IMG/VR virus record: IMGVR_UViG_3300025617_000068
Coordinates: 1-31,289 of that record
Source of the DNA: a virus
Length of the DNA stretch: 31,289 nt
Strand: one strand, 5' to 3'
Position numbers and translations under genes: made by a program. The notes beneath the pieces are model-generated. The model did no database searches. It was given only the letters and a program-made list of their open reading frames with translations, and was not told the origin of the DNA. Positions within the stretch are counted from its first letter, which is position 1; each line of letters begins with the position of its first letter. Shown here in pieces: positions 2,554 to 29,561 of this stretch.

Positions 2554-3020
2554 TGTATCAGCAAGACCCTGAACGTAAACGTAAATTAGCTGCTGGACCT
2601 ATGGCTGTTCAGCAAACTCAACCACGTTATACAGCACCACAACCAATGGCTCCTCAAAAGGGTATTACTGAACAATTTACTGACATGGCTAAACAAAGAG
2701 CTATGACTACTGCTTTAGATAAAGGTGCTTCTTTTAGTACTGATATGATCGCTAAAGCTATGGCTCCTTCCGCTACTCAAGCAGTAACTATTGGAGGCGC
2801 ACCTGCTACAGCTGCTGGAGGAATGGCAGCTCAAAGTGGCATGGGTGCAGCTTTAGGAACTGCAGGAACAGCTATGCCTTATATTGGTATGGGTCTTCTA
2901 GGTGCTAAAATGCTAGGTCTATTTAGTCAAGGTGGTTATGTTGGACCATTGTCTGGTGTAGCTTATAAGTATAACGGTGGAAAGATTTCAGCGAGTTTTT
3001 ATAATAAAGCTAAGGAGTAA
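2553..3020 (+). CDS. 155-aa Ala/Gly-rich putative virion protein
   Basis: I do not recognise a family. The N-terminal third is Gln/Pro-rich; residues about 70-125 are Ala/Gly/Met-rich and hydrophobic, including a glycine-zipper-like segment (YIGMGLLGAKMLGLF) that could cross or insert into a membrane. The C-terminus is polar (YKYNGGKISASFYNKAKE). The start shares a base with the preceding stop. Its location between a gp14-like protein and the giant internal virion proteins suggests a small virion or ejection component. Confidence 0.5.
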   Translation: MYQQDPERKRKLAAGPMAVQQTQPRYTAPQPMAPQKGITEQFTDMAKQRAMTTALDKGASFSTDMIAKAMAPSATQAVTIGGAPATAAGGMAAQSGMGAALGTAGTAMPYIGMGLLGAKMLGLFSQGGYVGPLSGVAYKYNGGKISASFYNKAKE

Positions 3021-3022
3021 TC

Positions 3023-4141
3023 ATGGCTAATTATCAACCCAATTATATCTATAGTCCTTTATATGGTAATAGATATATGGGTGGCAGTCGTACTCCTGCT
3101 CCTTCTACTGGAAATGCTGGTCAAGTAGATACAAGTGCTATCCAATCTAGAAACACAGCAGTAGGTGTACCTTATTCTCCTGTTGTAGAAGAACAACCAT
3201 TAGGTCCAGTAGGTTGGTCAAGTACTGGTCGAGATCAAAGCGCAGTTGAATCTTTAGGTACATTTGGATTTAGAAATTTAAATACTTTACAACAAGATCC
3301 TTTTGAAGGTACTGATTATCTTACCCAAGGATTTGGTTCTCCATCACCTATTAATACTTCTTTTGTTGCCCCTGTTCCAGAACAAACTCCATCTCCTGCT
3401 GTAGCATTTTCAGGAAGTGATGGAGGAAATGAAACAAACCCTCAACAAAATATATATGCAGGGCAAGGTATGACTGGCCCTTCTTCTTACTCTGGAGAAT
3501 TTAGTTTATCTAATCCAATGGATGTAGGATGGGGCTTATACAGTGTGGGTAGAGACTTACCCCCATTAGCACAAGCACTAGTCCCTGGAGTTCAAGCAGC
3601 TCAATTTGTTGGTGGTCAAATACTTGATCAAGAAATTGACCGCATAGATGATTCATACACTGTAATGAATACTGTTCCCAGTAATGTAGTTACTTCATCA
3701 GATGAATTTGGTAATGTATATGCTTCAGGTTATAAACCAGATTCTGTTATTAATGAAAGTAATACTAATTTAAGTGCTGCTCAGTTTTCTCAACTTTCTA
3801 ATAGTTTACCAGAAGGTGCTTCAGTTCAAGGAGTAGATGCATCTGGTAATGTAAATGTTACAATGCCTGATGGTACTACTGCTAGAGCAGGTGTTTCTCC
3901 TAACACTGGACAAGTTAACACTTATAACTTTAATGTTAATGATACAGTTACATATTCTGATTCTGATAAGTTTAGAGATGATACTGATGGTGATCAGTTT
4001 GGAGGTAGCCCTTCTACTTCTAGCACACAAAACACAGCAGCTTCTGAAGATGCATACTCTGCACCAGCTGCAGCACCACAAACAAATGATGAATTAGATG
4101 CAGATTCTGCGGATAGCGGAAGTGATTCAGGAGGTAAATAG
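3023..4141 (+). CDS. 372-aa low-complexity putative virion protein
   Basis: No domain is recognised. The sequence is Ser/Thr/Asn/Gly/Pro-rich throughout, opens with a Tyr-rich segment (QPNYIYSPLYGNRYMGG), and ends with an acidic Ser/Asp/Gly tail. Residues about 165-205 are the only clearly hydrophobic region. A textbook AAGGAG lies 6 bases before the ATG. The stop codon shares its last base with the GTG start of the next gene. Composition and location suggest a flexible virion protein. The alternative-frame open stretches inside it are shadows of its repetitive AT-rich codons. Confidence 0.5.
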   Translation: MANYQPNYIYSPLYGNRYMGGSRTPAPSTGNAGQVDTSAIQSRNTAVGVPYSPVVEEQPLGPVGWSSTGRDQSAVESLGTFGFRNLNTLQQDPFEGTDYLTQGFGSPSPINTSFVAPVPEQTPSPAVAFSGSDGGNETNPQQNIYAGQGMTGPSSYSGEFSLSNPMDVGWGLYSVGRDLPPLAQALVPGVQAAQFVGGQILDQEIDRIDDSYTVMNTVPSNVVTSSDEFGNVYASGYKPDSVINESNTNLSAAQFSQLSNSLPEGASVQGVDASGNVNVTMPDGTTARAGVSPNTGQVNTYNFNVNDTVTYSDSDKFRDDTDGDQFGGSPSTSSTQNTAASEDAYSAPAAAPQTNDELDADSADSGSDSGGK

Positions 4142-7020
4142 TGAACAATATTAAAAAGTTTACTCAGAAAGATCGTTATGGAAACATGATGTCTTTTGAG
4201 TTTGACGTACCTCCAATGGAGTCTATTCCTCATCCGGGGATGCCTATAGGTACAGACACAGTACCCGCATGGTTGACCCCCGGAGAACGTGTCATGAACG
4301 CTGAAGCGGAGCGTATGTATGGTCCTGCTTTAGAACAAATGAATGAACACGGTAGAGCTATCCAAAGAGCGCAGGGTGGTACTATACCTGAGTATGCTGC
4401 TATGGGATGTAAAGTAAAATATAAAGCTGCTGGTGGACCTGTGTATGCTCAAGAGGGTATGTCTCCAGAGCAGATGTCAGCATTGTTAGCAAATCAAGTA
4501 TTATCAGGTGCATTAGATCCTCGTACTGCTGAAGCCGCATTAGCTAATATGGGTATGGGGCAAGGGCAAGCTCAGGCTGTTACACCTAGCTTTGCATTAC
4601 CTCAAGTACCCCCAACAGATTATGAAGCAGAAGCTTTAATGGGAGTTCGTAGTTATCCTGAAGTTCCTACATCTCCTCAAACATTAAATACTGAGTTACC
4701 TCCTATTCGTCCACAACAACAACCAACACCTACAGATTATGAAGGTGATGTGTATAGTGGGAGAAGAGATTATCCTGAAGTACCTCAAGTTCCTGGGACT
4801 CTCGATGCAGAACCCCCTCAGAAGTATAGCGATCGTGTTACACAAACTCGTGAGTTATTAATACAACAAGAAGGTTATAAAACTAAACCTTACAAAGATA
4901 CTGAAGGTAACTGGACTGTAGGTGCAGGTCATAAGATTACAGATAAAGATATTCTTAATCGTTTAAATAACAATGAAGATGTTACTTTTACTGATGATCA
5001 ATTAATGGGTTTCTTTGAAAAAGATTTAAATACAGCTACTGAAGGTGCTCAAAAGAACTTTGAAGGGTTTAATAATTACTCTCCAGAACTTCAAGATGCG
5101 CTTATTTCAATGAACTATCAACTAGGTACTGCAGGTACAGCTAAGTTTAAAGAGTTTAAGAAAGCATTAGCAGAAGGTAACTATGCTAAAGCTAAAGCTG
5201 AATTAGATAATTCTAACTGGGCTAAACAAACTCCTGCTCGTGTTGAATATCTTAAATCTGTTATTGATAAACAAGCTGCTCAAAGTGTTGGTAATAAAAA
5301 TACTATTACTAGTGAATCAGGACAACCAGTTGTTGATAGCCGTTTTGGTATTGAATCTACTTATCAAGGTCAAGATGTTACTCCTGAAGTACCCCCTGTT
5401 ACTGAAGCTCCTCAAATGATTGATGAGTTTGGTATTGAACAAAGAGATGTTGCTGGTGGTGAAGGACAAGTAAATCCTGAAGTATTGCAACAGAAAAAGA
5501 TTGTTGAATATAATCGTTATGTTGATCAAGAGATTGCTCAAGGAAGAAAGCCTGAATCTTTTGATATGTGGGAATTTGAAAACTATACTACAGAAGGCGG
5601 ACGTCAAGCAGGTACTATTCAAAATGAAATGGCTCCTCCAGCACCTTCTATTGTAGAAGAAGCAGCTACTCCTGTAGATGAGTTTGGTAATATTTCAAGA
5701 GACTTACAAGCTGAACCTAAAACAGATGTAGTACCAGAAATTTCTCAAGGTGTAATTAAAACTCCTGCTGAAATTGCAGCACAAGAAACACCTCCTGATG
5801 TAACACAAGAGCAAAAGAAAGCTGCTGAAACTGTTATTAATCAAAATCAAAATGAACCTAACCCATATACTGATGGAATGGATGATGAACAAGCAGAAGC
5901 AGTTGCTAGTAATGTAGAAACTACTGGACAACAAGTAGCTAATAGTAATCCTCAAGCTCTTAATACTATTACAGAAGCTTTTAAAGGTGCATTTGGTTCT
6001 TTATTTGATCCACAAGAAATGGCTCGTATGGCTATTATGTATCTTGGTTCAAGGGCAATGGGTTATTCTCATGGTGGTTCTTTAAATTTTGCAGCTAAAA
6101 ACTACATTAAACGTGTAGATACAAAAGTAAGTAATAGAGAAAAGATTGCTCAATCACAAGTAGGAAAATCAACTCCAGAGTCTATTAAGAAATATCTTCA
6201 GACAGGTGATCTAGGAGATCTTAAAGCAATTGCTACAACTAAGTTAAGTAAAGATTTTGTTGTATTCAATGTTAAAGGAAAACCAGTTAATGGTTATTGG
6301 GATGAAACATCTCAACAATTCTATGCTAGAGATTCTCAAGGTGGAATGTTTACTATTCCCCCTAATACACCTAAGTTTAAAGATGATAAGTCTGCTGAAA
6401 CTTTTGCTAAGTGGACTAAAGATTCTAGAGCTATGGTTAATTCAGTTATTGATGATGCTTTTGAAGGTAAAGATAAACCTGAATTAGGTTTTATTACTGG
6501 AGCAGAAATTGCTACTCAATCAGCAAGTTACTTTAAAAATCGTGGTATATCTATTAAAGATGCAGAAACACTTTATAATATGGATGCTATTGTTCAAAAT
6601 GCTACTCGTGCAGCAGCAGAATATGCTTCAAATAACCAAGATAAAAAAGTAAGTTCTATTGAACCATTCTTAGCTCAAGCTACAGCTCAAGCTATTGTTG
6701 GTACTGATTATAATTTATTTATGATTGATCCAACAGCTGATCCTGAAGATATAGAATATGTTGATCCTAAAAATATTTCTAAAGTAATGAAGTCTCTTGA
6801 AAGTATTGCTCTAGAACAAACAGAAAATCCAACTGCTGCTCGTTCTAAACGAGATGAATTGTTAACTAGAGCTTCTTATGTTTGGAATAATTTACCTACT
6901 GAAGAACAAAAGAAATATGGTTCTCCGGGTGAAGGTGAAAATGGTTTTTATTTATTCTTACGTACACTTTTAAGTGATAATAAACTTACTGAAGAAGAAT
7001 TAACAGTAAAGGAAAAGTAA
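4141..7020 (+). CDS. 959-aa internal virion protein with GH24 lysozyme domain
   Basis: The N-terminus has a motif seen in phage structural proteins, GTDTVPAWLTPGERVMN (about residues 33-49). Residues 159-188 and 198-226 are an imperfect repeat (TDYE...YPEVP). A lysozyme domain of family GH24 follows, about residues 230-390: the T4-lysozyme triad E-D-T appears as Glu244, Asp253 and Thr259 with exact T4 spacing (9 and 6), followed by GAGHKIT. After two spaced DEFG repeats comes a Gln/Asn/Pro-rich linker and a mostly helical C-terminal third. The start is GTG, with GGAGG 6 bases upstream, and overlaps the previous stop by one base. A virion-borne lysozyme typically opens the cell wall at DNA entry, as in the T7 inner-core transglycosylase (gp16), here in a different fold. 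Confidence 0.75.
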   Translation: MNNIKKFTQKDRYGNMMSFEFDVPPMESIPHPGMPIGTDTVPAWLTPGERVMNAEAERMYGPALEQMNEHGRAIQRAQGGTIPEYAAMGCKVKYKAAGGPVYAQEGMSPEQMSALLANQVLSGALDPRTAEAALANMGMGQGQAQAVTPSFALPQVPPTDYEAEALMGVRSYPEVPTSPQTLNTELPPIRPQQQPTPTDYEGDVYSGRRDYPEVPQVPGTLDAEPPQKYSDRVTQTRELLIQQEGYKTKPYKDTEGNWTVGAGHKITDKDILNRLNNNEDVTFTDDQLMGFFEKDLNTATEGAQKNFEGFNNYSPELQDALISMNYQLGTAGTAKFKEFKKALAEGNYAKAKAELDNSNWAKQTPARVEYLKSVIDKQAAQSVGNKNTITSESGQPVVDSRFGIESTYQGQDVTPEVPPVTEAPQMIDEFGIEQRDVAGGEGQVNPEVLQQKKIVEYNRYVDQEIAQGRKPESFDMWEFENYTTEGGRQAGTIQNEMAPPAPSIVEEAATPVDEFGNISRDLQAEPKTDVVPEISQGVIKTPAEIAAQETPPDVTQEQKKAAETVINQNQNEPNPYTDGMDDEQAEAVASNVETTGQQVANSNPQALNTITEAFKGAFGSLFDPQEMARMAIMYLGSRAMGYSHGGSLNFAAKNYIKRVDTKVSNREKIAQSQVGKSTPESIKKYLQTGDLGDLKAIATTKLSKDFVVFNVKGKPVNGYWDETSQQFYARDSQGGMFTIPPNTPKFKDDKSAETFAKWTKDSRAMVNSVIDDAFEGKDKPELGFITGAEIATQSASYFKNRGISIKDAETLYNMDAIVQNATRAAAEYASNNQDKKVSSIEPFLAQATAQAIVGTDYNLFMIDPTADPEDIEYVDPKNISKVMKSLESIALEQTENPTAARSKRDELLTRASYVWNNLPTEEQKKYGSPGEGENGFYLFLRTLLSDNKLTEEELTVKEK

Positions 7021-7021
7021 T

Positions 7022-10000
7022 ATGAACGACGACTTGTTAGGTGGTTTGTTCGATAATCCTGAATCTAATCGTTATATTGATGGTGATACCGTTAAAGATT
7101 TAGATACAGGAGAATCATTAAGAATACAAGGTGTTAATACACCTGAAGTATCTAAAGTAACAGAGGAGGGCTTTACCCCTGGACAAGTCGGCGGTCGTTT
7201 AACAGGTAATCTTGTTTCAGGATTAGCAGAAAAACAAGGTTTTACTCAACCAGTAATACCTGATCCTACAAATAAAACCTATGGTCGTTATGTAGGAGAT
7301 ATGATTAATCCTGCTACAGGAGAAAGATTATCTACTAAGTTACTTGAATCAGGTCTTTCTGATATTACTTTATTTTCAGATCAAGGTCAAGTACAGTCAG
7401 CTTTATTTGGTAGACTTGAACAAGCTCAAAGAAAGTTAGAAGGTACAGAAGATGATTGGGATTTAGCAGCTGATTTAGTAAGAACTGAAAGAAATAATCT
7501 TACTAATCTTACTGCTAAACCTATAGCTCTTGATGAAGCACAATATGCAGCTGCTCCTGATGTGTATACACCGGGAGTAGTTCAAATAAGATCACCTCTT
7601 GATCGTACTATTGATAACAAAGCTACTAACTCTCTTAAAACAGCCTTTGCACTTGGGGTATCTAATCTAAAAGAAGGTGCTTGGGGTGCTTGGGATATGA
7701 TTGGAGATGTCTTTGAAACAGACAACTCAGGTAAAGCTAATGTAGATCGTATTCAAAGATCAATTCAAGGAATGCCTCAATTAGAAAATCAAGTAGCTTT
7801 TGATGAAGATGGTAATTGGACTTTAGATAGTGCGTCTAAAGTATTTGATTTTGTAGTAACTAATGCTGCAATGTCTGCACCTTATATGGTATCTTCTATT
7901 ATGTCAGTAGCATTAGCTCCTGTAACTTATGGTGCTTCTTTAGCTATACCTTCTCTTATTTATACTGGTCAAACATATAACGAACAAGAAGAAAAAGACC
8001 CTACTAGTGCTATTGTTTCTGGTACAGCCCAAGGTGTTCTTGAACGTTTAGGTTTAAAGGGTATTACGTCTGCAGGTGGTAATTTCTTAAAAGATACTAC
8101 TGTTAGAAGTAAAGTAGTACAAGAGTTAGCTAAAGCTAAATTTAAAGGTAATGTTAAATTAGCAGAAAAAGCTCTTGCTAATGAAACAATTAAAGAACTT
8201 ACTCGTATTTCAAAGACAGCTAAAGATGCTTTAGCATTAGAGTTTCGAGGTAAGTATTTAAATTTACCTAGAGGTGCAGGAAAAGCTGCCCTTAAAGGTT
8301 CTGCATCAGAAGCATTTACTGAAACAGGACAAGAACTATTAGCAGCTTTAGGTGCAAAAAATTTTAAAGTAGAAGACTTAGATACTGATGAATTAACTAA
8401 TAGGTTAATTAATGCCGCTGTAGCTGGTGGTACTCTTGGTGGTACATTAGCTGCAACAGGTCAAATGAAAAGTAATCTTACTTCTCTTGAAGCTTTAAGC
8501 GCACAATCACAAGCTGATCTTTCTAAAGCTACTGATGACTTTAAATATCGTAATGATTTAATTAATGAAGGTGCTACAGAAGAACAATTAAGTATTGATT
8601 ATGTAGCCGCTAATACTAATGAAGATACTACTTTAGAAAGTATTGCTGAACCAGAACTTAAGCGTAGGAAGGAAGGAAATTTCTTACAAAGCATTACTGA
8701 TTTCTCTAAAGGAGGAATTGGTCAATTGTGGAGAGGATTCTCAAATAATCTTAATGTTAAGTATGGTGCTAAAAGTGATAGCCTTCGTAGATTATTTGCT
8801 ATGGTTAATGGTAACAATATTTTCTATGGAGGAGGTATTGAAGATTATCAGCATCTAACTCAAAGTTCTTTAAACAATATTGTTGGTTCAGAACAAGAAG
8901 CTTTAGGTGCTTTTAAAGCTAGATCTTTATCTGAGATTACAGATATATTTAGTGATAATCGTATAGTAGATTTATTTAATAACCTTTCTAAAGAATATAA
9001 AAAAGGAAACTCAATTTCTTTTGCTCAAGTATTTGAATCAAAAGGTTTTGATTTACCATCTGAATATAAAAACAATAAAGATGCTATCTTAGAATATGCA
9101 CAGAGGTTCTATGATTACAATAATAAGATAGAACAAATTACAGGTGAATCAAAAAATATTTTAGAGCAAAAGTCTTTTAATAAAGTTCAAATTGCTAAAA
9201 ACATGGGTGACTTTGTAGAAGCACTACAAGATAGTGGTATGTCTGCAAAAGATGCTGAGTCTTTAGCGTTTGATATTCTTGATATTGAAAACATTCAAGA
9301 ACCAACTGATCTTTTTGATACTGATATTTTTAATAATTCAATAGATAAAAGTCAAGTTGATATTAATAAACTTAGAAAGAATCCTAAGTTAAAACCTTTC
9401 TTGAATGATGATATCTTTTATAACTTAGCATCTATTAATGGTTCAACAGCTGCAAGGCTTGCTAATGCAAAGTTCTTAGGTAAAGATGGTAACAAACTTG
9501 CTTACTATATTAAACAAGCTTTAGATGCGGGTGAGATTGATCAACAAGAAGCAGCTTATATTGCTGCTGAAATGAAAGATTATATTGATATTCGTAAGGG
9601 TGAATATAAAAGAATTGAAAGTCCTGCTTGGAGAGCTTTCCAACAGAATGCTTTGTTCTTAACTACACTTAATCAATTACCTTTAGCAACAGTTTCTTCT
9701 ATTGTTGAACTTAGCTTAGTTAGTAATGGTCTTAATAAGAAAGTAATCTTCGATAAGGGATTTATTAAAGATGCAGCTAAAGATGCTGCAAGAGAATTTT
9801 ATGATCTTTATAACGAAGGGGCATATAGAGCTAGCCGAGGTAGAATTAAACGAGCCGACTTAATTAGTACTGATCCTAGGCGTAATGATTTATATCAAGC
9901 AGGATTTATGCAAGAGTCTCAATCAGTTGCTCAAAAGAATGATGTTAACGCAGGTGTTAATAAACAACAAGCTATTAACTCTTTCTTTAAACTTATTGGT

Positions 10001-10813
10001 TTGCAATCACTAACTAATTATACTCGTAATTTACGTTTAGCTTTAGCAGGAGATGCTATTTTAGGGTGGGTTTATGATGTTGCTACAGAAGGAAATACTG
10101 TAACTAAACAATCATTAGAGGCTAGAGAAAATCTTATTAGCCTTGGTATTGATGTTAAATTCATGGTAGACTATCATAATACTTCTGAAAAGAGTGTTGA
10201 ACAACAATCTAAGTATGATGAACAAATGCGTCTTGCTTCTTTTAGATTTGTTAACCAAGCGGTAGCTCATCCAACTAAATCTAATAGACCTAAGTTTTAT
10301 CAAAACCCAAGGACTGCTTTATTCTTTCAGTTTCAAGGTTTTATTTCTACATTTACTTCTACTATCTTACCTAAGATATATCGGACTTTATTTAATAGTA
10401 ACACACCATTAGATACTCGTATTAGTACTATTGGTACATTAGCTACATTATTAGCTATGGGATTCTTTTCTCAGTATCTACGAGATCTTCTCAAATATGG
10501 AGAAGAAACTCCTTATCTAGATGACTTTGAAAAATTTCAAAGAGCTGTGGGTGCTTCAGGTATCTTAGGTTCTGGTGAGCGTGTTATTAATACTATGTTT
10601 CCCTTATATGACACCCGTTCTGATGGATGGTTAGACTTTGCTCTTGATGAAATATCAGGACAAGCTCCAGTATTAGGTTATGGTGGTAAGTTAGGTACAG
10701 CAGTAGACTCTATATTCTCAGGAGCAGATAATGCCCCTAGTAGGATACAAAAAGCAGCTCCTATGGTTGGTCCAATAAACCAATTCGGATGGAAGCTAGA
10801 TGAAATATTTTAA
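7022..10813 (+). CDS. 1263-aa internal virion protein with SNase-like domain
   Basis: The N-terminal 120 residues match the staphylococcal (thermo)nuclease pattern: DGDT at 20-23, LRIQGVNTPE at 33-42 (Arg34, Thr40, Glu42 equivalent to SNase Arg35, Thr41, Glu43), and YGRYVGD at 87-93 (Arg89 equivalent to Arg87). The residue matching SNase Asp40 is Asn39, so metal binding may be altered. The remaining 1100 residues include a hydrophobic stretch around 275-320 (VSSIMSVALAPVTYGASLAI), long helical regions, and a C-terminal segment (FFQFQGFISTFTSTILPKIYRTLF, then LLAMGFFSQYL) with two probable membrane helices. Size, position and membrane segments fit an ejection protein like T7 gp15 or gp16. It follows the 959-aa gene after one base and precedes the polymerase-like gene by 12. 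Confidence 0.65.
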   Translation: MNDDLLGGLFDNPESNRYIDGDTVKDLDTGESLRIQGVNTPEVSKVTEEGFTPGQVGGRLTGNLVSGLAEKQGFTQPVIPDPTNKTYGRYVGDMINPATGERLSTKLLESGLSDITLFSDQGQVQSALFGRLEQAQRKLEGTEDDWDLAADLVRTERNNLTNLTAKPIALDEAQYAAAPDVYTPGVVQIRSPLDRTIDNKATNSLKTAFALGVSNLKEGAWGAWDMIGDVFETDNSGKANVDRIQRSIQGMPQLENQVAFDEDGNWTLDSASKVFDFVVTNAAMSAPYMVSSIMSVALAPVTYGASLAIPSLIYTGQTYNEQEEKDPTSAIVSGTAQGVLERLGLKGITSAGGNFLKDTTVRSKVVQELAKAKFKGNVKLAEKALANETIKELTRISKTAKDALALEFRGKYLNLPRGAGKAALKGSASEAFTETGQELLAALGAKNFKVEDLDTDELTNRLINAAVAGGTLGGTLAATGQMKSNLTSLEALSAQSQADLSKATDDFKYRNDLINEGATEEQLSIDYVAANTNEDTTLESIAEPELKRRKEGNFLQSITDFSKGGIGQLWRGFSNNLNVKYGAKSDSLRRLFAMVNGNNIFYGGGIEDYQHLTQSSLNNIVGSEQEALGAFKARSLSEITDIFSDNRIVDLFNNLSKEYKKGNSISFAQVFESKGFDLPSEYKNNKDAILEYAQRFYDYNNKIEQITGESKNILEQKSFNKVQIAKNMGDFVEALQDSGMSAKDAESLAFDILDIENIQEPTDLFDTDIFNNSIDKSQVDINKLRKNPKLKPFLNDDIFYNLASINGSTAARLANAKFLGKDGNKLAYYIKQALDAGEIDQQEAAYIAAEMKDYIDIRKGEYKRIESPAWRAFQQNALFLTTLNQLPLATVSSIVELSLVSNGLNKKVIFDKGFIKDAAKDAAREFYDLYNEGAYRASRGRIKRADLISTDPRRNDLYQAGFMQESQSVAQKNDVNAGVNKQQAINSFFKLIGLQSLTNYTRNLRLALAGDAILGWVYDVATEGNTVTKQSLEARENLISLGIDVKFMVDYHNTSEKSVEQQSKYDEQMRLASFRFVNQAVAHPTKSNRPKFYQNPRTALFFQFQGFISTFTSTILPKIYRTLFNSNTPLDTRISTIGTLATLLAMGFFSQYLRDLLKYGEETPYLDDFEKFQRAVGASGILGSGERVINTMFPLYDTRSDGWLDFALDEISGQAPVLGYGGKLGTAVDSIFSGADNAPSRIQKAAPMVGPINQFGWKLDEIF

Positions 10814-10825
10814 TCGGAGCTTATA

Positions 10826-13800
10826 ATGGCTAAATTTTCTAGTACTAGACCGGGAGTACCTGATCAAGGTTCTCAGCCGAGTGTTGATAATGTACCAGTA
10901 ATTGAAGGAGCACAGGTTCCTTTACCTGCTGAAGAAGAATACTTTCAACAAGCAATTCCTCCAGTAGATATTACTCCTTCAGAGCCAACAATTGACGTAG
11001 GGCAAGTGGAAACTACTCCACTTCCTACAGTTGATTTTGAAGCTAATCTTGCTGAAGCAGCTAAGGCTATTCCAGCAGAAAGAGCTTTGGTCTCACCTGA
11101 TATTGTTAGTCTTCAAACACCTGAAGTACAACAACAAGTTGCCCGTCCTTTATATGATATAGACGGTAATGAAATTACTGATATTAATCAAAAGATCTCT
11201 ATTATTGCTAAGGAACAGCAAAGAACAAGAGATGCTTTGACTCGCCCAGGGTTAATTGATTATTCTAGTTATAGTGAATTATCACAGAACTTTAAAAACA
11301 TTATCCCTGAAAGTGACTTAGGAAAAGTACAAAGTGTAGCTAGAGATGCTACAGGTATTCTTACTGAGATTAATGCTAGTGTTCCTAATGCTAGTATTCT
11401 TAATGCTAAAGTAGATGTTACTGAACCTAATCAAACTGGTTTGTCTTTATTATCTAATGCTTTTCAAGTTGATAATAAAACAGCAGTAGGTGGTTATGTT
11501 AATGCTGCATCAGCTGTTGCTATGGAAGTAATGTCTGGTCGTATTAATAATGAAATCCAACAAGAAATAGTAGAAGATACTGCTACACAAAACATTGCTC
11601 CTACTGAAGCTGATTTATTTGATATTGATCTTGGTAATATTTCTGGTGTAAAAGAAGATCCTCTTACTTATACTAATGGAATTAACTATAAATTCTTTAA
11701 TAGTCGTATGGCTGCTGCTTATAAGCGGTATATGCGTAATCTTAAAGTAGCTCAAGATCAAGATGTTCGTGTAGCTCAACAGGCTAACTCAGATATTGTT
11801 GGTGACTTGTTAGGTGCTACTGCATTAGAGTCTGGATTATTTAAGTTAATTAAAGGTAATGATGGGGAAACTTATGTTATCCCTACAAATACTGCTATTG
11901 AGTTTTCTAAAGCAACTCGTAACTTAATTAATGAAACTATTAGTGAACGTAAAGAAGTAAGACGACCTACAACTCCTGCTAACTTAGATACAGGGTTTTA
12001 TAATAGCTATAATAAAGCTTCTGAAGTTCGTAATAGGCAAATTCCTAGATACCAAAATAAAAGTTTAGAAAAAGAATATCCATCTCCTAATACTAAACGT
12101 GGTAAGCTAGAAGACTTAACTGACTTTGCTGTTAAAGTAGGTAGTGTCCCTTATTCTACTACTAATATTCAAGTAGGTGGATTAGCTTTATTATCTGCTT
12201 TAGTTACTAATGATGCTAATGTTGGTGTTGATACTAAAGAGTTTCTTGGCTTACATGATTTAAGATTCCAAGAGATTGCTAAAACTGCTGGTGGTGGTGA
12301 TCGAGGTGCTCAAGCAGCATCTCAAGAAAAACGTAAAACAATTAACAAAGTAAATAACTCTGTTGGTATTTATGCTGGTATTAAAAATACTGCACCTGAA
12401 TATAACTATCATAAAGAAGATCCATCAGTACATCGTTGGTATCCAGAGAACTTAGCAGTAGAAGCTCAAAACAATCTATTAAACAGAGCTATGGTTACTA
12501 ATCCAGTAGCTAATATGGTTAAAGTTTCTAGAGAAGATTTAAATGCTATTAGTAATATGGGTTCTTCTTCTGAAGCATACTTCTTAAAACATTTCAAAGA
12601 TGGTGGTAAAATTAAAGATAAGAGAATGAATCTTATTTCTAATCTTGTAGCTATTCATAAAAATATTTTAGGAAAAGCTTCTGAGTCTATGACTTGGCCT
12701 GAAAGAGTAACTCAATTAACCCCTGCATTTATCGCTGAACATGGTAAGACTGGTCGGTTACTTAAGTCTGCTATTGGTAAACTAGGTATTGTTAATTCAG
12801 ATGGTTCTATTAATGAAAATACACTAAAGAACTTTACTATTTCATTAGACCAACAAGGGCAATATGGTAGAACACCTTTACCTCAATTAAGTCAAGATGA
12901 AGTATTAGCAATTAATAAATGGTTATCAGGCTCTGATCCTAAAACATTTGGTTTTGCTTTAACTTCTTATACAGCATTAGCTGATCTTATGGATGCAGTC
13001 CAGAATAATACTTACTGGAATCCTAAGATTATGACTGATATGGATATGAATTCTGCTGGTCGGACATTCATTTCTATGGATATCGGTAATTCAGATGTCT
13101 TAGAAAGAACAGGTATTATTCTTGAAGATGATAATAATCTTAAAGGTGGTCCAAGAAAATTCTTCTATGATAAGTTTACTGAGTTACTAAACCCTAAGTT
13201 TAATTCTCGTACTGTTAACTCTTTATTTGAAGAATCAAAAGCTAATACTGAGTATGAAAAAGCAACTATTGCTTCAATTTTACTTAATAAACTACAAGAG
13301 TTATCAGCAACTAATCCTAAAATCTATGATGATTTAGGTAAAAAAGTATTGTTGACTGATGACTATGGTAAACACTTTGCATTCCATGAGCAAGAAGCAG
13401 CATTGTTCTTAGATAAGTATCCTGCTATTAAAGAAGCTTTAATGCCATACTATGATAACGAAAATAAAATGGTGTTAGACTTTAATAGGATCTATTCTAA
13501 AACAATTATTAAATCTTCTGAAATGTGGAATACACAATTACCAAAAGATATTGTAGAAGTACTTCAGTTCTTTAATAGATTTCCAGAACCTACTTTATAC
13601 TTCGGTGAAAAGGCTGCTATTGGTAGTGAAACTTATTTAGAAATAGATCAAGGAGAACCTATTACTATTAATCTTCCTGATGGTATGGTTCAATATAAAT
13701 CTAAAGTAAAAGTTAAAGATCCTACTCGTCAAAGTGAAACCAAAACATTCTATAGTTATAAAGAAGGTAAAGTAATTAGGTATGTTCCTGAATACAACTC

Positions 13801-14566
13801 TTATAACATGAATCTTATTGGTCCACTGTTAGGTCAATACCGTGAATCAGCTACATTGATTGATGCTGTTAATATGGTTAACCCAGATAAAACTAAAACA
13901 CCTCAATGGTTTGCTATTGTACATGACAATTTAATTGTTGATGGTAATGGTTTTGCTCCGTATTTCTTTGCAGTTAACTCTGTTAAAGAGGGATCAGCTA
14001 TGAAGGTACTTGAGTTTGATATGATGGGTGAGTTTGTTCAAGACTTTAGACGTCAATTAAAAGATGTTATGCTTGAATTACAAGCTAAAGCTCAGCGAGA
14101 AGGTATTGAAGCAGCTACTGTTGATATTGGTAACAATGGAGAGTATGCAGCAATTGGTAGGAAAGCAGATAGTCTTTACTATCGTTTAAAGGACGCTGCT
14201 GATGAGTCATTTGACAAGAAAGAAGCAATGGAGAGTGAACTTAAATTATATCGTTCTATTGGATGGGTAGACCCTGATAATCGAGCCGGTGATTTTAAGA
14301 CATTCCCAATTAAACTAAAAGCTCTTGTTGAAAAGAAACATCAACCAAGTATGATTGTTTATAAGAATGGTAAAAAAGAAACACAAAAGCCTTCAAAGCC
14401 TTTAAGTTTTATTCAATCAATTATTTATCTTCGTGATATGGACTTTAAAATGAATCAATTTATTGAAGCTAATGGTCTATATGGAAAAGATACTGCAAGA
14501 AATAAAAAAGAAAAAGCATTGAAGCGTGTAAAAGCAGGACAAGAATACTTCCTGTTCTTTACATAA
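10826..14566 (+). CDS. Divergent single-subunit RNA polymerase, virion-RNAP-like
   Basis: The 1246-residue protein is not close to any family I can name, but its second half carries the T7-class polymerase motifs in order. Motif A is DMNSAG at 740-745, matching T7 Asp537 to Gly542. Motif B is KKVLLTDDYG at 839-848, giving the K-x7-Y-G of T7 Lys631, Tyr639 and Gly640, with the conserved Thr at 844; T7 Arg627 is replaced. LPDGM at 950-954 matches T7 TPDGF, and IVHDNL around His1033-Asp1034 matches the T7 HDSF loop (Asp812). The first 500 residues are Pro/Gln-rich at the start and otherwise helical. Located last in the virion operon, it may be packaged and ejected like N4 virion RNAP. It ends just before a strong terminator. 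The polymerase call rests on motif reading by eye. Confidence 0.7.
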   Translation: MAKFSSTRPGVPDQGSQPSVDNVPVIEGAQVPLPAEEEYFQQAIPPVDITPSEPTIDVGQVETTPLPTVDFEANLAEAAKAIPAERALVSPDIVSLQTPEVQQQVARPLYDIDGNEITDINQKISIIAKEQQRTRDALTRPGLIDYSSYSELSQNFKNIIPESDLGKVQSVARDATGILTEINASVPNASILNAKVDVTEPNQTGLSLLSNAFQVDNKTAVGGYVNAASAVAMEVMSGRINNEIQQEIVEDTATQNIAPTEADLFDIDLGNISGVKEDPLTYTNGINYKFFNSRMAAAYKRYMRNLKVAQDQDVRVAQQANSDIVGDLLGATALESGLFKLIKGNDGETYVIPTNTAIEFSKATRNLINETISERKEVRRPTTPANLDTGFYNSYNKASEVRNRQIPRYQNKSLEKEYPSPNTKRGKLEDLTDFAVKVGSVPYSTTNIQVGGLALLSALVTNDANVGVDTKEFLGLHDLRFQEIAKTAGGGDRGAQAASQEKRKTINKVNNSVGIYAGIKNTAPEYNYHKEDPSVHRWYPENLAVEAQNNLLNRAMVTNPVANMVKVSREDLNAISNMGSSSEAYFLKHFKDGGKIKDKRMNLISNLVAIHKNILGKASESMTWPERVTQLTPAFIAEHGKTGRLLKSAIGKLGIVNSDGSINENTLKNFTISLDQQGQYGRTPLPQLSQDEVLAINKWLSGSDPKTFGFALTSYTALADLMDAVQNNTYWNPKIMTDMDMNSAGRTFISMDIGNSDVLERTGIILEDDNNLKGGPRKFFYDKFTELLNPKFNSRTVNSLFEESKANTEYEKATIASILLNKLQELSATNPKIYDDLGKKVLLTDDYGKHFAFHEQEAALFLDKYPAIKEALMPYYDNENKMVLDFNRIYSKTIIKSSEMWNTQLPKDIVEVLQFFNRFPEPTLYFGEKAAIGSETYLEIDQGEPITINLPDGMVQYKSKVKVKDPTRQSETKTFYSYKEGKVIRYVPEYNSYNMNLIGPLLGQYRESATLIDAVNMVNPDKTKTPQWFAIVHDNLIVDGNGFAPYFFAVNSVKEGSAMKVLEFDMMGEFVQDFRRQLKDVMLELQAKAQREGIEAATVDIGNNGEYAAIGRKADSLYYRLKDAADESFDKKEAMESELKLYRSIGWVDPDNRAGDFKTFPIKLKALVEKKHQPSMIVYKNGKKETQKPSKPLSFIQSIIYLRDMDFKMNQFIEANGLYGKDTARNKKEKALKRVKAGQEYFLFFT

Positions 14567-14573
14567 TAAAATT

Positions 14574-14611
14574 AGCCCCTTGGGATTACTCCCTTGGGGC
14601 TTTTTTTTTTT
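14574..14611 (+). terminator. Strong intrinsic terminator between converging blocks
   Basis: AGCCCC (14574-14579) pairs with GGGGCT (14596-14601), and inside it GGGA (14582-14585) pairs with TCCC (14590-14593) around TTAC, separated by a T-T/T-T internal loop. Eleven T follow (14601-14611). It ends rightward transcription 8 bases after the polymerase-like gene. On the other strand the hairpin is followed by TAATTTTATT, so it may also work leftward. Confidence 0.92.
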
Positions 14612-14975: not shown

Positions 14976-17432
14976 TCAACAGAAAAAGTATTCAGAATCT
15001 AATACTTGTCCAATATTAAGATTACCTATGTCAGGTATCTCTTTATTAAAGCCCTCTGTATTACTCAAGATATTCTCAAAGATATCAAAGAAGTAATTAA
15101 ATTCGTTATACATAATAACAAATATGTGTCTAGTCAATTGACCTAATTCTTCAACGTCTCTAGCATGACAACTAAAGCTATCATGTACAGCACCAAAGCT
15201 ACCTTCCCAATTGGCTATGACTAACGCCATATGAGAAGCATCTTGACTATGAATAAAGTTAGGTGATATACCACTCATAAGACCTTGAAGAGAAGCATAA
15301 GGGCTAGGCTCTTGAAGGATATGTGTGATACGTCCTGTATATTCACCATTCTTTTTGTGACCTACTGGTACACCCGAAAGAGTTACATATACACTTTGTT
15401 CTCTAGTAAGATATGAATGATAAAACACTGGGAACCCTGAAGGTGTTTCCCAAGACATATAGGTCTTTCCATTACCATACGACACATATCTAGTATCTTT
15501 AACATGACGAAGCTTATCTTCGATCATAGCTAACTCTAGATCATCGTCAATAGTTTTATCTTTCTTTTTCTTTAGTGTTTGTTTACGAGCATGAGTAGTT
15601 CTTTTCTTAGCTTGTGTCCAATCAGAACCATCAATATCATACGCTGATGTCTTACCTATTTCAAAGTCTACTAATGACTGTAAAAAGTTCATTACTTTAG
15701 TAGCCCCTGGACAGACATCTTCAAGGGCTAAAATAAGGTTACGTGCGAGTTCTTCACAGTCTACCATAGTGATGTTAAATTCTTCTGTGATACCTCCGGT
15801 ATAACAATCAGCGTACATGCTGTCAGCGATCTTCTCTGCGCCAGCTGAGTATGCTCTGGTCATTGTTCCACGCTTAGTAATGTACTTACGGATATGCTTC
15901 ATTTTCATATCTGGACGAGCTTCAAACCACTCTGGCATACGCTCAATTAAAGCTTTAGCAGCCTTAACATATAAGTCAGATTGAATCTCTGTAGGTGTTA
16001 ATGATACCAACTCACCTGTATGCTCATCACGAGATATAGCAGCACTGTGTTGATAGCCATTACAGCTACCATCAATAGGGATAGGTAAGTGACTAATATA
16101 GTTAATGTTATTAGAAGCATTACGTACTTCAATACAACACGCTAAGAATGAGAAAGGTTTTTCACAATCAAGTATCTTATCAGTACTATTAAAGATTAAC
16201 TCAATGTTTTGTTTAGTCCACTCCTCTCTATCTTTAAGAGTCATCTTGTCTACCGAAATAGATTCAAGACCTTCTTTGTTAAGGTAAGAGGCATAATCAT
16301 AACTGCACCAATTAGGAATATTATCAATGTCATAAGACTGGTTGTAACAAGAAGCAGTATGAATATATAACCACTTAAGACCGTTAGCACCCAAAGGCTT
16401 TCCTTCTTTAAATAAGAACAAAGCTCTTGCCATATCTGAACCTTGGAAATTAAAGAAAGGTTCTTTGTAATAAACTCTACCACGATAATCTACATCCACA
16501 TACTGATAAAATTCTGAATAGATAGAAAGCATTTTAGCTTTACTAAAGATAGCTTCTAGTTCTGTACGCTTAGAAATATCTCGAAGAATTATTAACTCTT
16601 CATTCCACTCTTCAGCAGCTTGGTTATAACGCTTTTTGTTTTCATCGGAAGGATCTTCTTTAAGTAGCTTATATGCTGCATCTACATCAGACTTTTTAGC
16701 CTTATCTAAACGCTTCTTAGCTTCAGGTAAGATACTACTAAGATTACATTCAATAACTTTCAATACTTCTTTGTTAACAACCCATGATTGTTGTTGAAGT
16801 TTATTAAGAGATTGAAGCCAAGGTTCATTACGCTTAATAGCTTCTTTAAAGGCTTGTTGATGTAGGATAAGAGGTATCTTACTTGTTTCAGAGTTAATAC
16901 CCTTAATAACAGCAATATTATCTCCTTGCATAATGTCTTTAATATCAGGAATCTTTTGTCCTGTTGAATAAAGAATTAAACCTTTACCATCTTTAGTTTG
17001 TACTAGATCAGAGAACTTATCAGTGATTTGAATTACATAAGGTGAACCAGAACGAGGTGCAAAGCCTTCTTGAATTTCAATATTAATAAATCCTGCATGA
17101 TAGAAAGCTTCAATAAATAAATCACCGATATGTAATAACATAGGTTTATTTAATTCTACTTTTTTATAGTTACATACTTCTACTCCAATAGAAATAGCTG
17201 TATGTGTTAGGAGTGCTTCTCCTTTCTTTCCTGAAGGGTCATCAGCTGCTTTATGAAGGATAATATTAGTAGCAACATTAACTAGATGCTCAATATCTTC
17301 TTCATAAATAACTTCTTCTTCTCCTTTAAGAATAGTAGCAAGATACAATGGTCCATATGCCTGCTTCTTATTCGTATTGAAGATAACCTTTCTGAGTCTT
17401 TCACTCAGGTATTCTACAACAAGGTTCTTCAT
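14976..17432 (-). CDS. T7-like single-subunit DNA-directed RNA polymerase
   Basis: The 818-residue protein transcribes phage genes from phage promoters without sigma factor. Visible motifs: VDVDYRGRVYY (312-322), equal to the T7 DWRGRVY region; motif A DGSCNGYQHSAA with catalytic Asp454; motif B KRGTMTRAY with Lys520 and Tyr528 (T7 Lys631 and Tyr639); WETPSGFPVF (661-670); SPNFIHSQDASH (723-734); and motif C HDSF with His750-Asp751. T7 Arg627 is Lys516 here and the Gly after the motif B Tyr is Ser529. The C-terminus ends in aromatic residues (EYFFC), where T7 RNAP has its hydrophobic foot. Length is a little under T7's 883. It is preceded by TGAGGATACT, 7 bases downstream of the primase-helicase stop. 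Its place at the far end of the replication block is unlike T7, where it is early. Confidence 0.97.
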   Translation of the reverse strand: MKNLVVEYLSERLRKVIFNTNKKQAYGPLYLATILKGEEEVIYEEDIEHLVNVATNIILHKAADDPSGKKGEALLTHTAISIGVEVCNYKKVELNKPMLLHIGDLFIEAFYHAGFINIEIQEGFAPRSGSPYVIQITDKFSDLVQTKDGKGLILYSTGQKIPDIKDIMQGDNIAVIKGINSETSKIPLILHQQAFKEAIKRNEPWLQSLNKLQQQSWVVNKEVLKVIECNLSSILPEAKKRLDKAKKSDVDAAYKLLKEDPSDENKKRYNQAAEEWNEELIILRDISKRTELEAIFSKAKMLSIYSEFYQYVDVDYRGRVYYKEPFFNFQGSDMARALFLFKEGKPLGANGLKWLYIHTASCYNQSYDIDNIPNWCSYDYASYLNKEGLESISVDKMTLKDREEWTKQNIELIFNSTDKILDCEKPFSFLACCIEVRNASNNINYISHLPIPIDGSCNGYQHSAAISRDEHTGELVSLTPTEIQSDLYVKAAKALIERMPEWFEARPDMKMKHIRKYITKRGTMTRAYSAGAEKIADSMYADCYTGGITEEFNITMVDCEELARNLILALEDVCPGATKVMNFLQSLVDFEIGKTSAYDIDGSDWTQAKKRTTHARKQTLKKKKDKTIDDDLELAMIEDKLRHVKDTRYVSYGNGKTYMSWETPSGFPVFYHSYLTREQSVYVTLSGVPVGHKKNGEYTGRITHILQEPSPYASLQGLMSGISPNFIHSQDASHMALVIANWEGSFGAVHDSFSCHARDVEELGQLTRHIFVIMYNEFNYFFDIFENILSNTEGFNKEIPDIGNLNIGQVLDSEYFFC

Positions 17433-28972: not shown

Positions 28973-29395
28973 TTAGAAATAAGATATAACCGCTTCTATA
29001 GCATCATCAAGATTAGTATAAATTTCTGTTGAAAAGTTATAGATAAACGGATGTTTGAAATGACCTTCATCCATCAATGTAATGATAACACGACGATCAC
29101 GTTGTGCTAATGCCATCTCAGCTACAGTACCCCAGCCTTTACCGGGAATACTGTCCTGTAAATTGCATAGCAATACTTTAGACCTAGAAATATCTTCTAA
29201 GTCTTGTTGGACAATACGATTACGTACATTCGCATCATCAAACCTATTATGTAATAGACCTCTACGAGTAGGATCTAATACAGGAATACCTGCTAACTGT
29301 AATTCATTAGTAGCAGTGATTCTCCATGTAAGCATATCAGCAGGATTACATTGTTCCATTTTACCTGCTAAGTAAACATGATTACGTTTACTCAT
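28973..29395 (-). CDS. Nucleoside 2-deoxyribosyltransferase-like protein
   Basis: The 140-residue protein matches the fold of nucleoside 2-deoxyribosyltransferases and related DUF4406-type proteins: VYLAGKM at 7-13 (substrate loop), LAGIPVLDPTRRG (34-46), IVQQDLEDISRSKVLLCNL with Asp65, and GWGTVAEMALA where Glu93 takes the place of the catalytic Glu. Such enzymes swap bases on deoxynucleosides or hydrolyse deoxynucleotides, which suits salvage in a phage with its own RNR and dCMP deaminase. The ATG at 29395 overlaps the previous stop (ATGAGTAA); longer starts lack a ribosome site. Confidence 0.78.
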   Translation of the reverse strand: MSKRNHVYLAGKMEQCNPADMLTWRITATNELQLAGIPVLDPTRRGLLHNRFDDANVRNRIVQQDLEDISRSKVLLCNLQDSIPGKGWGTVAEMALAQRDRRVIITLMDEGHFKHPFIYNFSTEIYTNLDDAIEAVISYF

Positions 29396-29561
29396 ATTTA
29401 AGCTCCTCAACTTTATAGACTTCTCTATCTATGTAATCACTAGTATACCAGTTAGAGTAACCTTCATCTATTAGTTGTTTAGCTTCTTCAAGAGATTCAG
29501 CAGTTACTTTGTAATAAAATAACGCAGTAGCATGTTCAACTACTAGGTATTGTTTACTCAT
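29388..29561 (-). CDS. 57-aa small protein
   Basis: The product begins MSKQYLVVEHATALFYYKVT, then AESLEEAKQLIDEGY, a beta-strand plus helix pattern, then a Tyr-rich tail. It overlaps both neighbours by 8 bases with the same ATGAGTAA junction. AGGAG for the next gene lies in its last codons. No family recognised; the pattern AESLEEAKxLI...EG resembles small DpnD/PcfM-like or other regulatory-fold proteins, but this is weak. Confidence 0.68.
   Translation of the reverse strand: MSKQYLVVEHATALFYYKVTAESLEEAKQLIDEGYSNWYTSDYIDREVYKVEELKYE

Follow-up and report, generated by a model that had tools for sequence, protein, structure and literature searches.

A likely compact virion RNA polymerase of the N4 type in marine podoviruses that also encode a T7-like RNA polymerase

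N4 is the textbook phage that brings its own RNA polymerase (RNAP) to the host. In N4 a single operon encodes three ejection proteins, the virion RNAP (vRNAP) among them (PMC12633501), and the N4 mini-vRNAP has been described with motifs A, B, C and TxxGR (PMC4496689). A 2025 structure paper on N4 considers the giant vRNAP to be unique to its family (PMC12633501). Within the Schitoviridae, Alteromonas phage R22Y (68-kb genome) carries a shortened vRNAP of 2083 aa together with a second RNAP (PMC11705849), which is still much longer than the proteins described below. Outside this family, a virion RNAP has been proposed for StenR_269, where a large Cys-free late protein of 2270 aa was put forward on the strength of its size, helicity and lack of Cys, the HHpred and AlphaFold attempts being inconclusive (PMC10747016). 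A census of N4-like viruses discarded vRNAP matches under 2500 aa and required ExDGxxxG (PMC10654107). The literature that we searched, mostly without subscription journals, holds no report of a compact vRNAP outside the Schitoviridae, and an unseen report is possible.

The window analysed here is the whole of a 31,289-base virus record (IMGVR_UViG_3300025617_000068, positions 1 to 31,289). Its rightward late operon ends with an ORF of 1246 aa, upstream of which lie genes for an endolysin, a lysozyme-bearing internal protein and a particle protein; facing it is a leftward block whose final gene, convergent with the 1246-aa gene, encodes a T7-like RNAP.

4141-7020, plus strand: internal protein, 959 aa, 1 Cys, carrying a lysozyme domain (PF00959, E 7.5e-12; phrog_2083, internal virion lysozyme motif, E 8.6e-17)
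7022-10813, plus strand: particle/ejection protein, 1263 aa, 0 Cys, directly upstream of the 1246-aa gene (phrog_6958, virion structural protein, E 2.2e-19)
10826-14566, plus strand: compact virion-type single-subunit RNA polymerase gene, 1246 aa, 0 Cys (HMM, HHalign, AlphaFold2 and Foldseek)
14578-14599, plus strand: terminator-like hairpin and T-run closing the late operon (consensus scan and sequence)
14976-17432, minus strand: T7-like RNA polymerase, 818 aa, 13 Cys (PF00940, E 1.8e-59; phrog_414, E 7.6e-109)

The product of 4141-7020 probably serves as an ejection protein for breaching the cell wall. In the 1263-aa protein, residues 14-113 match the endonuclease family phrog_452 (E 2e-5) and include an IDGDTV-type stretch, and judging from this sequence similarity the N-terminus may be a nuclease domain. 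The T7-like RNAP, presumed to be the second-stage polymerase, has 41-43% identity to the RNAP of Roseobacter phage CRP-7. No capsid or terminase genes were found within the 31-kb fragment; in the early block, 28973-29410 (minus strand) has a weak match to nucleoside 2-deoxyribosyltransferase (phrog_1817, E 3.2e-4). An earlier sequence-only reading of this DNA had placed the ORF and, within its product, DMNSAG with Asp740, K839-x7-Y847-G848 with Thr844, and H1033-D1034 exactly where we find them. It had also located the T7-like RNAP at 14976-17432, which holds with the correction that this gene is on the minus strand and convergent with the 1246-aa gene, and had spoken of a virion operon, a term borne out, within the limits of this contig, by the three genes that precede.

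As a single query the 1246-aa protein had no match in Pfam, PHROGs, PDB sequences or INPHARED (50,697 phage genomes), and scanning viral contigs directly with it gave none either. Relatives were reached via the adjacent RNAP: a profile of the window and CRP-7 RNAPs led to 28 marine viral contigs, and those reaching far enough downstream carry a convergent ORF of 1109-1264 aa adjoining the RNAP gene. An HMM of these syntenic ORFs matches the 1246-aa protein (E 4.8e-63), and BLASTP against one member, L009, gives E 1.5e-83. The 14 syntenic proteins adjoining CRP-7-like RNAPs form clade A. CRP-7 gp33 (QBQ72826.1, annotated as a hypothetical protein) occupies the same genomic place as the 1246-aa gene and is the only syntenic homologue found in a phage isolate; pairwise BLASTP between the two is not significant, and gp33 is identifiable through the family profile and synteny alone. 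Another member, L025, opened clade B, represented at first by 33 viral contigs and later by 71, with a further contig from a Candidatus Pelagibacter MAG. Complete clade B members measure 1162-1599 aa, and an RNAP was located in 65 of the 72 scored loci, convergent with the virion-type gene in 65/65. Within clade B, contig G001 (L092-L094; 58,008 bases) carries a direct terminal repeat of 77 bases and probably represents a complete genome. Searches of the 50,697 phage records by tblastn with the 1246-aa protein, L009, L019, L025, L077 and L160 returned no match. Divergence is faster in the virion-type RNAP gene than in the genes next to it: among clade B contigs L058-L090 its identity is 53-72%, as against about 94% for the adjacent T7-like RNAP on the same contigs. 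The presence of a clade B gene on the Candidatus Pelagibacter-binned contig (L099) is a weak hint that clade B phages infect SAR11 hosts.

Conservation was assessed in an alignment of 28 proteins of both clades, with 12-25% identity to the 1246-aa protein. Only seven columns are invariant, namely D740, G763, R777, Y847, G848, G927 and D1034, and position 839 is K in 23/28 and R in 5/28. The motifs and the core that holds them lie as follows.

13031-13066, plus strand: motif A, residues 736-747 (MTDMDMNSAGRT), with Asp740 (28/28; aligned to N4 D559)
13340-13369, plus strand: motif B, residues 839-848 (KKVLLTDDYG), with Lys839, Tyr847 and Gly848 (K/R 28/28, Y and G 28/28; aligned to N4 K670, Y678 and G679)
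13913-13939, plus strand: motif C, residues 1030-1038 around His1033-Asp1034 (D1034 28/28; aligned to N4 D951; beta hairpin in the model)
12941-14083, plus strand: palm-fingers core with the best conservation, residues 706-1086 (the stretch over which the clade A profile aligns with that of clade B, 97.3% probability)

Invariant catalytic columns at such low identity place motifs A, B and C, as proposed from the letters of this one protein, beyond chance. Among the residues singled out by that proposal as ones that homologues should conserve, Asp740, Tyr847 and Asp1034 are invariant, while 839 is either Lys or Arg. An LPDGM segment that had been equated with TPDGF of T7 is rejected as a T7 element: even the closest relatives do not conserve it, it falls in a low-confidence part of the model, and the likeness is probably due to chance. 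In clade B, the equivalents of the catalytic D, K, Y, G and D are present in 63/63 proteins, as are E, D, G, T, H and G of motif A, K, P, Y and G of motif B, and D and A of motif C. Clade B also has ExDGxTHG (63/63), and the N4-style ExDGxTHGP and GR..NP..R block, in agreement with the motifs described for the N4 mini-vRNAP. At the place of the D/TxxGR motif, clade B has Arg in 63/63 proteins and Gly in 48/63. The GR motif was not seen in clade A, the 1246-aa protein included, and ExDGxxxG, a feature of N4, is likewise absent from clade A, with DMDMNSAG in its place in the 1246-aa protein. The motif-B arginine (T7 R627, N4 R666) is absent throughout the family, the position being D, K, N, E or others. 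The CRP-7 subgroup (L002 17859-21566, L010, L011, L013, L016, L022, L029), gp33 among them, has Arg at the position of Lys839; a Lys stands four residues before that Arg, the reverse of the usual Arg-x3-Lys.

Profile comparisons by HHalign link the family to N4 in steps. Clade A (without L025) aligned with clade B at 97.3% over residues 706-1086, the 1246-aa protein alone with the L019 group at 98.5%, and the 1246-aa protein with L008 and L009 against clade B at 96.2% over 720 collinear columns. Clade B aligned with the N4 vRNAP at 98.6% over 686 columns, all five catalytic residues being in register. Compared with N4 directly, clade A without L025 reached only 23%; an early family profile that included one clade B row (L025) had inflated this score to 93%. 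The N4 homology of the 1246-aa protein therefore rests on the stepwise chain from clade A to clade B to N4. The true alignments scored 76-145, the highest values from 40 column shuffles being 18-32, and unrelated control profiles (particle protein, helicase) stayed below 4%. Clade A (without L025) showed no significant similarity to T7-like RNAPs (0.5%), which means little because the method also misses the known relationship between the N4 vRNAP and T7-like RNAPs (only 3.0%). On the low-threshold path, D740, K839, Y847 and D1034 of clade A fall on the partner's catalytic residues in all three comparisons (clade B, N4, T7-like RNAP).

The AlphaFold2 model of residues 141-1246 has a mean pLDDT of 64 and a pTM of 0.63, with core blocks at about 80-93. 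In this model Asp740 ends a beta strand, the motif B helix stops just before Tyr847, and Asp1034 sits in a beta hairpin. Foldseek ranked mitochondrial and T7 RNAPs highest (best E 8.5e-10); the PDB search gave 189 matches, 61 of them at E <= 0.001, and the best 50 of those 61 are all single-subunit RNAPs. Among viral models (BFVD), RNAPs reach 1e-10, whereas DNA polymerases appear only from 2e-3. The clade B model (pLDDT 78, pTM 0.74) has the RNAP domain of the N4 vRNAP as its best PDB match (E 2.4e-12); clade B rows were included in the alignment of the 1246-aa protein, so the two models are not fully independent. With moderate TM-scores (about 0.35-0.43 by query) and high rmsd, the fold class is secure at the level of the models, and structural details are not. 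A predicted structure had been named by the sequence-only reading as a check on its claim, and over residues 141-1246 it has the palm-fingers fold of a single-subunit RNAP. The claim itself, a highly divergent single-subunit RNAP of the virion (N4) type, is thus supported by the fold, the conserved catalytic residues and the HHalign chain.

How does this family compare with the described systems? It shares with N4 gp50 and the Schitoviridae vRNAPs the single-subunit RNAP fold, the catalytic residues in register and the lack of Cys, and in N4, too, the vRNAP gene closes the late genes and converges on the replication side. Unlike the N4 vRNAP of about 3500 aa (type range about 2,800-3,800), the window protein has 1246 aa and leaves N4's large extra domains unmatched, and where N4 relies on a two-subunit RNAPII as partner (PMC4496689), there is here one full-length T7-like chain. 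CRP-7, the nearest complete relative, encodes an SU10-type head (L098 5670-10846; SU10_MCP 2.5e-70, SU10_portal 2.6e-138), and its sequence, used as a proxy for the window, suggests that phages of the compact RNAP family are not Schitoviridae. With the T7 and mitochondrial RNAPs, the 1246-aa protein has in common the fold class and the order of motifs A, B and C; it differs from them in its negligible profile similarity, in being a Cys-free product of a late gene among ejection proteins, and in being additional to the phage's own T7-like RNAP. The StenR_269 protein was compared by description, and the internal virion proteins of its Zobellviridae counterpart, ICP2, had no profile match to the family or to N4.

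Cysteine content sets the family apart from its neighbouring polymerase. The 1246-aa protein and all clade A members are Cys-free (15/15), as are 70/72 clade B proteins over 84,583 residues, whereas adjacent RNAPs have 11-14 Cys beside clade A and 9-14 in complete clade B RNAPs. Fourteen N4-type vRNAP segments likewise lack Cys, and so do nearly all of the neighbouring ejection-type proteins. Because it is common to other ejection proteins, this property speaks for ejection and not for catalysis.

Our computations cover homology, fold class, conserved catalytic residues, gene order and lack of Cys, and the reading that we regard as likeliest, with good though not full confidence, is a compact, ejected RNAP of the N4 virion type that starts early transcription. 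Counted against a packaged RNAP are the missing motif-B arginine, the lack of GR in clade A, Arg for Lys in the CRP-7 subgroup, the weak direct score between clade A and N4, the moderate TM-scores and the search for N4-type promoters: N4-like hairpins (5-bp stem, 3-nt loop) were in no excess in CRP-7 or in the window, which may lack the early end. A scan for host-type promoters gave fewer matches than in shuffles and is uninformative. Several of these points would also suit a polymerase-derived ejection protein that has lost its activity, its fold now forming part of an ejection conduit in the role of T7 gp16 while host RNAP reads the early genes. Such a protein would be expected among ejection proteins, and its fast divergence relative to the RNAP on the same contigs, the absent arginine, the Lys-to-Arg change in one subgroup and the lack of visible N4-like promoters are all consistent with it. 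Yet the two aspartates, the Tyr and the Gly stay invariant while nearly all the rest of the sequence varies. Without catalysis such a pattern is difficult to account for, and we consider a loss of activity unlikely.

An active single-subunit RNAP might, alternatively, never be packaged and instead be synthesised inside the host as a late-acting or special-purpose enzyme that, for example, transcribes late genes or primes replication. The gene does belong to the late operon, which by synteny is presumably transcribed by the T7-like RNAP; however, the family is Cys-free across about 85,000 residues, like N4 vRNAPs and the ejection neighbours and unlike a cytoplasmic RNAP, and this makes an unpackaged enzyme quite improbable. 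That the motifs are chance matches in an unrelated helical internal virion protein could be argued from the failure of single-sequence searches in Pfam, PHROGs, PDB and phage genomes, but is contradicted by the invariant catalytic columns, the shuffle-controlled HHalign chain and the structure matches of both clades, and we give it hardly any weight.

Packaging, ejection and early transcription by the 1246-aa protein are suggested by synteny, the lack of Cys and the N4 precedent, and we infer catalytic activity together with an early-to-middle cascade. The compact RNAP would be made late in infection, packed in the capsid together with the neighbouring Cys-free proteins, and would pass through the tail together with the DNA that enters first. 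Once inside the host, it would transcribe the right-hand, leftward early block, which ends with the T7-like RNAP gene, and the T7-like RNAP, as second enzyme, would transcribe later genes. A packaged RNAP would explain the location of the T7-like RNAP gene at the distal end of the replication block.

The compact group was missed because it has no sequence-database match and because the census of N4-like viruses dropped short versions, excluding them by design. Overall, virion-packaged RNAPs are probably not peculiar to the Schitoviridae, and a compact form, close to the catalytic domain, is probably widespread in marine podoviruses with SU10-type heads that also encode a full-length T7-like RNAP. 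If true, these phages would express their genes through a two-polymerase cascade of their own, with little dependence on host RNAP. A version about one third of the N4 size occurs in over 80 marine contigs and in CRP-7, a cultured isolate; with this smaller protein, one could test how packaged polymerases are ejected, recognise promoters and have evolved.
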